From the NCBI RefSeq assembly GCF_036345255.1, contig NZ_CP107783.1:2790001-2854000 (forward strand): a stretch of DNA of 64,000 bases, written 5' to 3'. The translations under genes were made by a program, and so were the position numbers. The stretch's first letter is position 1. Each line of letters begins with the position of its first letter. The notes under the pieces were generated by a model. It searched no databases. It was given only the letters and a program-made list of their open reading frames with translations, and had not been told where the DNA came from. Of the stretch, positions 26,195 to 29,125 are shown piece by piece. This DNA is from Streptomyces sp. NBC_00569. GTDB lineage: Bacteria > Actinomycetota > Actinomycetes > Streptomycetales > Streptomycetaceae.

Positions 26195-27403
26195 ATGGAG
26201 TTCCGGCAGTCGAGCAAGCTCAGCGAGGTCTGCTACGAGATCCGCGGCCCGGTGATCGAGCACGCCAACGCCCTTGAGGAGGCGGGCCACAGCGTCCTGC
26301 GCCTCAACACCGGCAACCCCGCGCTCTTCGGCTTCGAGGCGCCCGAGGAGATCGTCCAGGACATGATCCGGATGCTCCCCCAGGCCCATGGCTACACCGA
26401 CTCGCGGGGCGTCCTGTCCGCCCGCCGCGCCGTCGCCCAGCGCTACCAGGCGCTCGGCCTCGAGGTCGGCGTCGACGACGTGTTCCTCGGCAACGGCGTG
26501 TCCGAGCTGGTCTCCATGGCCGTACAGGCACTCCTGGAGGACGGCGACGAAGTCCTCATCCCCGCCCCGGACTTCCCGCTGTGGACGGCCGTCACGACGC
26601 TCTCCGGCGGCAAGGCCGTGCACTACGTCTGCGACGAGTCGGCCGACTGGTACCCCGACCTCGACGACATGGCCGCGAAGATCACCGACCGCACCAAGGC
26701 CGTCGTCATCATCAACCCCAACAACCCCACGGGCGCCGTCTACCCGAAGGAGATCATCGAGGGCATCCTCGACCTCGCCCGCCGGCACGGCCTGATGGTG
26801 CTCGCCGACGAGATCTACGACCAGATCCTGTACGACGACGCGGTCCACCACAGCGCCGCCGCCCTCGCCCCCGACCTGGTCGTCCTCACCTTCTGCGGGC
26901 TCTCCAAGACATACCGCGTCGCGGGCTTCCGCTCCGGCTGGCTGGTCGTCACGGGACCGCGGCAGCACGCCCGTGACTACCTGGAGGGCCTGACGATGCT
27001 CGCCTCCATGAGGCTGTGCGCCAACGCCCCCGCCCAGTACGCCATCCAGGCCGCGCTCGGCGGCCGCCAGTCCATCCGCGAACTGACCGCGCCGGGCGGC
27101 CGCCTCCTCGAACAGCGCGACAAGGCCTGGGAGAAGCTCAACGAGATCCCGGGGGTCTCCTGCGTGAAGCCCAAGGGCGCCCTGTACGCGTTCCCGCGCA
27201 TCGACCCCAAGGTCCACCCCATCGTCGACGACGAGAAGTTCGTCCTCGACCTGCTGCTCCGCGAGAAGATCCAGGTTGTCCAGGGTACCGGCTTCAACTG
27301 GCCGCGCCCGGACCACTTCCGCATCCTCACCCTCCCGTACGCTGACGATCTAGACGCCGCGATCAGCCGGATCGGCCGCTTCCTGAGTGGGTACCGCCAG
27401 TGA
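26195..27403 (+). CDS. Class I/II aminotransferase, AlaA-like
   Basis: 402 aa fold-I PLP enzyme. Motifs: GYTDSRGVLSARRAVAQRYQ, NGVSELVSMAVQALL, IINPNNPTGAVYP, and the PLP lysine in TFCGLSKTYRVAGFRSGW. The whole-length pattern (MEFRQSSKLSEVCYEIRGPV start) is that of actinobacterial and enterobacterial AlaA, glutamate-pyruvate aminotransferase for alanine synthesis. GGGAGGGC precedes the ATG. The next gene starts inside its stop (GTGA), so the two are co-translated, and the upstream operator places both under the HxlR regulator. Confidence 0.92.
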   Translation: MEFRQSSKLSEVCYEIRGPVIEHANALEEAGHSVLRLNTGNPALFGFEAPEEIVQDMIRMLPQAHGYTDSRGVLSARRAVAQRYQALGLEVGVDDVFLGNGVSELVSMAVQALLEDGDEVLIPAPDFPLWTAVTTLSGGKAVHYVCDESADWYPDLDDMAAKITDRTKAVVIINPNNPTGAVYPKEIIEGILDLARRHGLMVLADEIYDQILYDDAVHHSAAALAPDLVVLTFCGLSKTYRVAGFRSGWLVVTGPRQHARDYLEGLTMLASMRLCANAPAQYAIQAALGGRQSIRELTAPGGRLLEQRDKAWEKLNEIPGVSCVKPKGALYAFPRIDPKVHPIVDDEKFVLDLLLREKIQVVQGTGFNWPRPDHFRILTLPYADDLDAAISRIGRFLSGYRQ

Positions 27404-28032
27404 CGTTCTGCACCACCTGCGCCCTGCCGAGCCTGACGCAGTTCGCCTCGCCCGAACTCGTCGAGGCGATCGTGGAGGGCGGCCACGACCGCGCGGACGA
27501 CCCCGCCTGGGAGACCTCGGGCGCGGCCACGGTGGAGGACTACGCGCGGTGGTGCGGCCATCTGTGCGGCCTGACCTGCCTGCGCATGGCACTCGGCCCG
27601 ACCGCTCCCAGCCTGTTCGACCTGCGTGACGGAGCGCTCAAGTACGGCGCGTACACCGTGGACGCGGAGGGCGACATCCACGGTCTGATCTACGCCCCGT
27701 TCGCCGAGTACGCCCGCGAGGAACTCGGCCTGGACGCGACCGTGCACCGCACACTGACGGTCGACGAGATCTCCGGGCTGCTCGATGGGGGCCGTACGGT
27801 CATGGCGTCGGTCCACTACGGGATCCGGCGCCCGGAACGGCCCGCGCCCGGCCGGGGCGGACACCTGGTCCTGCTCACGGCCCACGACGGTGACCGCTTC
27901 CGCTTCCACAACCCGTCGGGGATCAGCCCCGAGACCCGTTGCGCGGAACTGCCGTCGGCGACGTTCGAGACGTTCTTCGCGGGGCGGGGAGTCTCGTTGG
28001 GTCCCGGACACGGAGCGGGTCCGAGGGCGTAG
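27400..28032 (+). CDS. C39-like peptidase fold protein
   Basis: 210 aa. It looks like a papain-fold/C39-like protein: candidate nucleophile Cys52 in RWCGHLCGLTCLRMAL, candidate His in GRGGHLVLLTAHDGD, and an Asn in FRFHNPSG. There is no signal peptide or transporter fusion, so a cytosolic or pathway-specific role is more likely than bacteriocin export. The GTG start overlaps the aminotransferase stop by 4 bp. Function unknown; the tight coupling to an aminotransferase suggests a shared small-molecule or peptide pathway. Confidence 0.75.
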   Translation: MTFCTTCALPSLTQFASPELVEAIVEGGHDRADDPAWETSGAATVEDYARWCGHLCGLTCLRMALGPTAPSLFDLRDGALKYGAYTVDAEGDIHGLIYAPFAEYAREELGLDATVHRTLTVDEISGLLDGGRTVMASVHYGIRRPERPAPGRGGHLVLLTAHDGDRFRFHNPSGISPETRCAELPSATFETFFAGRGVSLGPGHGAGPRA

Positions 28033-28084
28033 CCGGCCCCCGGACCCCATGAATGCCACTCACATCACACGCCGACACGCTTGA

Positions 28085-28190
28085 GGACCCGGGTCAGTGT
28101 CAATGCCCTGCGTCCTGCCTTTGGACTACCGCCCATCGAGCTGGGCGGGCCGGATTCGAACCGGCAATTCGGGGCCTGGGGCCCGGGTCC
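28085..28190 (-). ncRNA. tRNA-like structured RNA, Y RNA (YrlA)-like architecture
   Basis: Read on the minus strand, in order: outer strand GGACCCGGG (28190-28182); CCCCG (28174-28170); a canonical T arm, stem GCCGG/CCGGC with loop TTCGAAT (28165-28149); acceptor 3' strand CCGCCCA (28148-28142); a 6-nt loop; acceptor 5' strand TGGGCGG (28135-28129); TA; a D arm with 4-bp stem GTCC/GGAC and loop AAAGGCA (28126-28112); CAGGG pairing with CCCCG at 4 of 5 positions; and outer strand CCCGGGTCC (28093-28085), which pairs perfectly over 9 bp. A normal tRNA has the opposite order. This circularly permuted layout, closed by a long outer stem, is that of bacterial YrlA Y RNAs, whose effector domain mimics tRNA. 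No Ro60/Rsr (TROVE) or RtcB gene is in the window. A permuted or decayed tRNA is the alternative. No clear promoter was found. Confidence 0.5.
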
Positions 28191-28248
28191 GATCGATTCG
28201 GCGATGAGCGGCGAATACTGAGTCTGGAGCAAGAGTCTGAGATTGATG

Positions 28249-28275
28249 GCGGTCCGCGTGTGCTGTGCGGACCGC
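28249..28275. other. Hairpin upstream of the tRNA-like RNA
   Basis: GCGGTCCGC pairs perfectly with GCGGACCGC (9 bp, 9-nt loop). It lies 59 bp upstream of the tRNA-like RNA on the minus strand and could be an additional arm of that transcript or an independent terminator. Confidence 0.45.
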
Positions 28276-28319
28276 ACCGTCACGACAAGCTTCAGCTTCA
28301 GCTTTGCGCTCCTCGCGCA

Positions 28320-28348
28320 CCCCGGCCGCCGCTCAGCGGCGCCCGGGG
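28320..28348 (-). terminator. Terminator of the 28370-29125 gene
   Basis: CCCCGG-N-CGCCGC pairs with GCGGCG-N-CCGGGG (12 bp, one central mismatch, TCA loop), 22 bp after the stop on the minus strand. If efficient, the tRNA-like RNA downstream needs its own promoter. Confidence 0.7.
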
Positions 28349-28369: not shown

Positions 28370-29125
28370 TCAGCCGAAGAGGTAGCTGAACACGGGGTCA
28401 CCCGCCCGCTGGTCGGCGACCTCCGCCGCGTTCGCCTCCTCGCGGGCGAACTTGACGGCCTGCTGGAGCCTCTCGATCCGCTCGAGCAGCTCGTTCACCC
28501 TGCGCGCGGGCAGCGCCCCGGAGAACTTCACGGTCGTCCAGTACCCGACGGGCACGTCCTCGTAGTACACCTCGACCTGCGCCGGGTGCTTCTCGGTCGC
28601 CTCGGCCTTCACGTGGTTGCGCGGCACCTTCTTGGTGCGCAGCGTCCGCACCGGCTCCGTCTTCCAGTCGTCGGTCGACGGGTCCTGCGTCCACGCCTCG
28701 GAGGCGTCGAGCACGGGCAGCTTGCGCACGAAGGCGTTAAGGTCGACGAGCTGCTTCTCCAGGAAGAGCAGATACGCGACCGGCACCTGGCTCAGGACGG
28801 CCCGTCCGTCGACGGTGACATCGGCGCGCGCCTCGCAGTTCGCCCAGTCCTTGGTGGCGGTCACATCGAACAGCCGGGTGAGCGTCTTCGCGGTGTCCCG
28901 CAGCACGTGCTCGGCCCTCACCTGGACCCGTGTCGACTCGGGCGGCAGCTGCTCGCCCTCCTCGTCCTTGGGCTGGTAGGTACGCGAGATCCCGGCCAGG
29001 AGTGCCGGCTTGTGAAGCCCGTGATGGGCCGCCGTCAGGTCCTGGTGTGCCTTGGACTTGACGCCTTTCTCGACTGCGATGATCTGATTGAGTTTCGTTG
29101 CCACGCGAGAAAGGTAGTCAGGCAC
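28370..29125 (-). CDS. Conserved actinobacterial protein of unknown function
   Basis: 251 aa, soluble. The start MPDYLSRVATKLNQIIAVEK and the end DPVFSYLFG look well conserved to me for a Streptomyces family, but I can give it no function. It has mixed alpha/beta character with charged C-terminal helices (LLERIERLQQAVKFAREEAN) and no nuclease, kinase or membrane motif. It lies directly upstream of, and on the same strand as, the tRNA-like RNA, so a functional link to that RNA is worth considering but is not shown. Confidence 0.85.
   Translation of the reverse strand: MPDYLSRVATKLNQIIAVEKGVKSKAHQDLTAAHHGLHKPALLAGISRTYQPKDEEGEQLPPESTRVQVRAEHVLRDTAKTLTRLFDVTATKDWANCEARADVTVDGRAVLSQVPVAYLLFLEKQLVDLNAFVRKLPVLDASEAWTQDPSTDDWKTEPVRTLRTKKVPRNHVKAEATEKHPAQVEVYYEDVPVGYWTTVKFSGALPARRVNELLERIERLQQAVKFAREEANAAEVADQRAGDPVFSYLFG

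Follow-up and report, generated by a model that had tools for sequence, protein, structure and literature searches.

What might a transcript do that is folded like a tRNA with its two halves exchanged? The question is raised by positions 28085 to 28190 of the 64,000-nt stretch of Streptomyces sp. NBC_00569 DNA analyzed here (the window), which a first-pass annotation had described as a circularly permuted tRNA mimic resembling the YrlA Y RNAs of bacteria. All of the elements named there, that is the outer stem, the T arm, the two acceptor strands, the dinucleotide TA and the D arm, are present on the minus strand at the positions given for them (Table 1), and their order is indeed the permuted one: in a permissive local scan the Rfam YrlA model (RF02553) aligned end to end with the module (35.5 bits, E 3.7e-6 over 501 bases), with few matching letters in the outer stem, the part of a YrlA RNA in which a Ro60-binding sequence would be expected. 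A default Rfam scan of the window returned 0 matches, with no family at its gathering score; YrlA does not appear in it because 35.5 bits is under that family's gathering score of 69. ARAGORN called neither a tRNA nor a tmRNA in the window. The fold predicted for 28085-28190 has a minimum free energy of -54.3 kcal/mol (z -2.5; 4 of 200 dinucleotide shuffles were as stable), a value that by itself is modest and only mildly unusual. Evidence beyond chance comes from the YrlA alignment and from comparison with other loci.

The annotated interval contains real elements and covers only the second half of a conserved RNA. A covariance model, R1, was built from 25 loci other than the window (319 positions, 47 pairs) and found a single match in the 64-kb window. 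This match is full-length, begins about 45 nt beyond the stop codon of the gene upstream on the same strand, and thus adjoins a gene for a protein of family DUF7873 (PF25283), the arrangement by which the DUF7873-linked RNA is recognized; on sequence grounds the window RNA is almost certainly a member. The family is a widespread RNA of predicted structure, about 340 nt long with its hairpins, encoded immediately downstream of DUF7873 genes. One or two circularly permuted tRNA modules extend from a predicted central body of several helices, and each predicted module consists of a T arm, an acceptor stem capped by a loop, and a D arm, rooted on an equivalent of the anticodon stem. The module first noticed in the window is module 2; a plain hairpin stands in the place of module 1.

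Table 1. Features of the DUF7873-linked RNA and its neighborhood in the window
Feature	Position	Strand	Basis or remark
DUF7873 (PF25283) gene	28370..29125	minus	Pfam E 3e-118; same-strand upstream neighbor of the RNA
5' hairpin, CCCCGGGCGCCGC-TGA-GCGGCGGCCGGGG	28320..28348	minus	read from the sequence; similar hairpins in other loci, uncounted
Conserved RNA, full-length R1 match	28061..28325	minus	184.8 bits, E 1.9e-64, model positions 1-319
Region A, GAGCGC and hexamer repeats (ARRYTN)	28287..28311	minus	GAGC pairs with GCTC of region B; helix 1, 88.0% of cells paired
Plain hairpin replacing module 1, 9-bp stem, 9-nt loop	28249..28275	minus	compared with loci that keep module 1
Region B, CTCAGACTCTTGCTC, partner of region A	28227..28241	minus	alignments of 68 and 25 loci
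Helix CGCCGA/TCGGCG (helix 5 of A4), 5' strand	28198..28203	minus	6/6 pairs changed on both sides
Outer stem, 5' strand, GGACCCGGG	28182..28190	minus	9 bp; helix 6 of A4; 6/6 pairs changed on both sides
U48 equivalent of module 2	28166	minus	just outside the T arm
Module 2 T arm, loop TTCGAAT at 28154-28160	28149..28165	minus	helix 7 of the A4 alignment
Acceptor hairpin CCGCCCA, loop GCTCGA, TGGGCGG	28129..28148	minus	U1-A72 and G73 equivalents; helix 8 of A4
Acceptor strands	28148-28142 and 28135-28129	minus	followed by TA before the D arm
D arm, GTCC-AAAGGCA-GGAC	28112..28126	minus	A14 = 28122, A15 = 28121; helix 9 of A4
Outer stem, 3' strand, CCCGGGTCC	28085..28093	minus	pairs with 28190-28182; same basis as the 5' strand
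TTAAACG-like conserved segment, here TCAAGCG	28084-28078		
Helix CGCCGA/TCGGCG, 3' strand	28070..28075	minus	after the TTAAACG-like segment
Hairpin beyond the 3' end of the R1 match, 12-bp stem, loop with GGCTAC	28017..28047	minus	read from the sequence

Two further elements recur around the modelled core. Three or more ARRYTN hexamers in tandem precede module 1 in 21 of 68 loci, compared with 0 of 3400 mononucleotide shuffles, and might form a repeat bound by an oligomeric protein. Similar hexamers also occur after module 1, and pairing between regions A and B accounts for them only in part. Downstream, a hairpin with a GGNTAY loop is found from Streptomyces to Pseudanabaena phages (45 of 68 loci, against 7 of 1360 mononucleotide shuffles); the conservation of this predicted loop is greater than a terminator would need. 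In the window this hairpin overlaps the end of a convergent open reading frame (27400-28032).

The RNA follows the DUF7873 gene closely. DUF7873 is encoded in 32 of the 61 genomes of a set centered on this one, and R1 matches of at least 74 bits occur in exactly those 32. Each of these matches lies within about 100 nt of the DUF7873 gene when the coordinates are compared by eye, that of genome G051 being in two pieces. Among the matches listed for the 29 DUF7873-negative genomes, the best score was 54.4 bits (G013), in the tRNA-like part; the scan of the 61 genomes used stricter filters. Partial R1 matches at C1:6688011 and C1:7872738 of the present genome proved to be tandem ordinary tRNA genes, not permuted RNAs, and the other partial matches that are universal in Streptomyces are taken to be likewise ordinary tRNA genes. 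In an even draw of Actinomycetota, DUF7873 was found in 6 of 296 genomes, this one included, all in the same genus.

Outside chromosomes, 73 of 50,697 phage records contain DUF7873 (phages of Vibrio, Gordonia, Rhizobium, Klebsiella, Serratia, Arthrobacter, Pseudanabaena, Rhodococcus and Microcoleus), as do 4 of 72,556 plasmid records. R1 matches 91 of 95 phage, plasmid and IMG/VR loci with an E value no higher than 0.001; 20 of these 95 loci had themselves supplied sequences to R1. A match was sought beside DUF7873 in L148, L149 and L183 and none was found; L201 has only 134 nt downstream of the gene. Two loci gave partial matches only (L121, 21.2 bits; L122, 35.8 bits), and in L181, L190 and L117 the best match sits on the opposite strand, ahead of the gene, or 1.8 kb beyond it. 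The gene-RNA pair is chromosomal in Streptomyces and Streptosporangiales and is carried, often within tRNA arrays, by phages of Gordonia, Arthrobacter, Rhodococcus, Rhizobium, Klebsiella and Pseudanabaena. DUF7873 sits amid tRNA genes in phages Mimi, Phendrix, NiceHouse, RHph_TM21B and RHph_Y65 and has a few tRNAs nearby in Keelan, RHph_Y1_11 and two Vibrio phages; no tRNA is annotated near it in the displayed stretch of Pam2, My-WqHQDG, KpLz-2_45 or PA-SR01.

To compare the modules themselves, we used a finder that requires the T, acceptor and D arms to pair, the T loop to contain TTCRA and the D loop to contain GG. At least one permuted T arm-acceptor-D arm module was found 3' of DUF7873 in 201 of 205 loci, as against 43 of 205 upstream of the gene and 23 of 205 on the reverse strand, the finder being permissive (spacers of up to 150 nt) and firing in tRNA arrays too. 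Two or more modules were found in 145 of 205 loci (by set 26/30, 55/80, 12/15 and 52/80). For the analysis of module pairs we kept the 138 of 205 loci with two modules 110-290 nt apart, or 134 after dropping L190, L141, L170 and L176, where the wrong modules had been paired up; non-redundant subsets of 74 and 68 loci were used below, the 68 being required also to have enough flanking sequence. By eye, the D arm of module 1 resembles that of tRNA-Leu and module 2 is variable. Module 1 has been lost in many other Streptomyces, with hairpins of varied sequence in its place, so two handles would be inessential. Loci with a single module were sorted by a rough regular expression (bins of 48, 9 and 11) that classed L137 and L154 as single although both have a second module, and no count is drawn from it.

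The first-pass annotation had called for a search for compensatory changes in the outer, acceptor and D stems, and these were found. Of the 28 loci that passed a length filter, 25 were aligned (L116, L056 and L063 were left out), and on this alignment, A4, RNAalifold predicted 47 pairs, 39 of which are changed on both sides. Over all helices 96.0% of the cells are paired, compared with 73.2% after shuffling and 41.7-45.1% when the strands are slid. Because the finder's criteria (arm pairing and the T- and D-loop motifs) had shaped the choice of loci, agreement in those features is partly built in, and the three helices not selected for (1, 5 and 6 of the full set) provide a cleaner test. In these helices, which were predicted on the same A4 alignment, 90.1% of cells are paired (71.4% shuffled, 34.0-51.6% slid), 14 of 15 pairs are changed on both sides, and the covariation score is 0.653 compared with 0.281; none of 500 shuffles attained 0.653. 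An alignment of 68 sequences yields the same helices, and a mutual-information scan ranks the unselected helices alongside the arms.

The finder likewise did not select for U8, the 15-48 pair or the anticodon-stem equivalent. U8 is present in 74 of 74 copies of one module and 73 of 74 of the other, and A is found at position 14 in 74/74 copies of module 1 and 67/74 of module 2. Positions 15 and 48 form the Levitt pair, a tertiary contact of folded tRNA. In module 2 this pair is A-U in 56 loci and G-C in 18, with 0 others (n = 74), and the A15-U48 of the window module fits the pattern; in module 1 it is A-U in 71 of 74, the exceptions being L136, L031 and L034. An anticodon-stem equivalent of at least 5 bp can form in 49 of 68 loci for module 1 and 51 of 68 for module 2; controls made by exchanging strands among loci gave 23% and 26%. 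The covariation, including that of the tertiary 15-48 pair, indicates that the modules would fold into a tRNA elbow. Since both the permuted register and the helices around it covary, a decayed ordinary tRNA, the outcome that would have undone the first description, can be ruled out. Possible anticodons (CAG following module 1, UUG in the window) were dropped, as they are not conserved at a 7-nt loop.

The neighboring gene had been described as encoding a conserved protein of unknown function and a possible dedicated partner. The presence of DUF7873 tracks that of the RNA, as a dedicated partner's would. PF25283 is a large family, with 5946 proteins above threshold among 7998 candidates scored, and DUF7873 is absent from the openly licensed PMC literature searched. 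The DUF7873 region of the window is, at the protein level, 98% identical to that of Streptomyces sp. CB01635. A GTG at 29104 is the probable conserved start of the protein, giving 244 amino acids, since homologues in phages start opposite about residue 9. An AlphaFold2 model (75 sequences; mean pLDDT 93.0, pTM 0.78) predicts long helices together with a group of beta strands. We found no reliable structural relative of this model in the PDB or in a viral library, and no RNA-binding fold was indicated; for a predicted structure, such a missing match is no evidence for a new fold.

Our preferred explanation of the whole, with a probability of roughly 0.55, is that the DUF7873-linked RNA acts as a tRNA-mimicking ribonucleoprotein. 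DUF7873 would bind the RNA, and the tRNA-shaped arms would, by analogy with YrlA, engage enzymes that recognize the tRNA elbow and acceptor stem; in phages, near tRNA arrays, the particle may act on the processing or turnover of host or phage tRNA. That the arms serve such a DUF7873 particle specifically as handles or decoys is a more tentative suggestion. Several observations sit poorly with the preferred explanation: DUF7873 occurs without an R1 match in the three loci named above, several phages carry it without an annotated tRNA nearby, the confident protein model has no match showing an RNA-binding fold, module 1 is often missing, and some copies encode a CCA that a purely closed mimic would not need.

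This last point leads to a different reading, which we consider rather unlikely: that the RNA is a permuted precursor which RNase P and 3' processing would open at the acceptor loops, as in a two-piece tmRNA, and whose aminoacylated CCA ends serve in translation or ribosome rescue. In permuted tmRNA the T arm and acceptor precede the 5' acceptor strand, an order shared with the DUF7873-linked RNA. N73 followed by CCA is encoded in 27 of 74 module 1 copies and 15 of 74 module 2 copies, a likeness to two-piece tmRNA that nevertheless is missing from most copies and from the window. Passages in PMC10085705 and PMC3978253 describe two-piece RNAs made from permuted tmRNA genes. Cleavage at the loops is harder to reconcile with the 4-nt acceptor loops of module 1 in 9 of 134 loci, though module 2 loops have 6 nt or more. 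The window has no tmRNA (RF00023) match; a comparison of loci found no one frame across regions A and B, whose spacing differs by non-multiples of three; and the DUF7873-linked RNA differs further in its full D arm and in often having two modules. We had also considered a translated tag, as codons for Lys/Arg and for Leu alternate when the hexamers of regions A and B are translated. It was dropped because, in the loci compared, the distance from A to B does not keep to multiples of three and because Arg would be AGA/AGG even in GC-rich Streptomyces. An ordinary permuted tRNA gene, with its termini ligated into a tRNA as in red algae, is very improbable. Passages in PMC3978253 on such genes (algae, Thermofilum) give the same order, the 3' half ahead of the 5' half with intervening sequence, and the anticodon-stem equivalents described above would suit it; however, there is no 7-nt anticodon loop, the stem continues into conserved covarying helices of a larger conserved RNA, and a hairpin can replace module 1. 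It is also improbable that the element is no RNA gene and simply forms an untranslated 3' region with a role in regulating or protecting the DUF7873 mRNA. It does follow DUF7873 immediately, and on the same strand, in nearly every locus, but its predicted structure, with tRNA tertiary covariation, goes far beyond a terminator's needs, and in L117, L181 and L190 the RNA is out of place.

The remaining reading builds on the original one: a true Y RNA, which would bind Ro60 (Rsr) and link it to a nuclease, with DUF7873 as an accessory protein. YrlA is held to engage tRNA-recognizing enzymes through its tRNA-shaped arm. The window RNA shares with it the permuted T arm, the looped acceptor stem and the D arm on an outer stem, and is detected by its model. 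The genome-wide search for TROVE genes proposed at the outset gave a single match, C1:8106447, so the genome does have a gene for such a protein; it lies 5.3 Mb from the window RNA. Upstream of it is a YrlA-like module of its own (L232:1892-1999, equal to G000:C1 8105391-8105498), which scores 36.3 bits, also under the gathering score, and looks like the strain's own Y RNA. ARAGORN also calls the 5' part of that module a tRNA-Asn gene. As the Ro60-side RNA of the strain is no better a match than the window RNA, the gathering score alone is indecisive. TROVE is absent from 9 of 32 DUF7873-positive genomes and from 9 of the 10 phage records behind DUF7873 loci (it is present in one), and within the genus it is found in 13 of 20 DUF7873-positive and 10 of 17 negative genomes, so the occurrence of DUF7873 and that of Ro60 are unrelated there. 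Of the marks of a YrlA RNA, the locus thus has the permuted tRNA-like module and lacks an adjoining Ro60 (TROVE) gene, its partner gene being DUF7873. The DUF7873-linked RNA differs further in its extra conserved helices, hexamer repeats and 3' hairpin, and in often having two modules. Tethering of Ro60 by this RNA is accordingly doubtful and a true Y RNA quite unlikely; of the phrase "Y RNA or related RNA", the YrlA-like permuted domain stands and Y RNA identity is not supported. By analogy we infer a putative YrlA-like mode of action, through tRNA mimicry. For comparison, passages in PMC7824862 describe TROVE in jumbo phages, passages in PMC7790460 present Y RNAs as partners of Rsr, and a passage in PMC7765460 mentions YrlA in phages.

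In its setting, the nearest parallel to the DUF7873-linked RNA, judging from passages in PMC6582537 and PMC9569102, is GOLLD, a large phage-linked RNA of unknown function found in tRNA clusters of phages and mycobacteria and holding a predicted (pseudo) tRNA gene. The DUF7873-linked RNA differs in having a dedicated protein neighbor, and no GOLLD match was found in the window or in L112-L116, L118 and L003. We found no published description of this RNA in the openly licensed PMC literature, where a joint search for permuted tRNA, bacteria and Y RNA also returned nothing; descriptions elsewhere are possible. The RNA is conserved and shows tRNA tertiary covariation, and in the window no Rfam family attains its curated score. 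It is possible, at odds we would place somewhat below even, that the tRNA-mimicking ribonucleoproteins form an undescribed class, shared by phages and multicellular actinobacteria and built on one or two permuted tRNA folds, that captures or redirects tRNA-handling machinery and in phages perhaps shields translation from host tRNA-cleaving defenses. Permuted tRNA mimicry would then extend beyond Ro60 and be tied to phage tRNA arrays, DUF7873 would gain a concrete candidate partner, and whatever binds the tRNA shapes would offer a way into what phage tRNA arrays need. Finally, two phage arrays contain neighbors of some interest. In Gordonia phage Phendrix, an 89-bit tmRNA match (L113:1078-1606) lies in the same tRNA array as the DUF7873-linked RNA, at a separate place, and the annotation of that array lists no tmRNA. 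In Rhodococcus phage NiceHouse (L115:4371-5243), DUF7873 is followed by a gene for a band-7-like membrane protein, with one tRNA gene between them.
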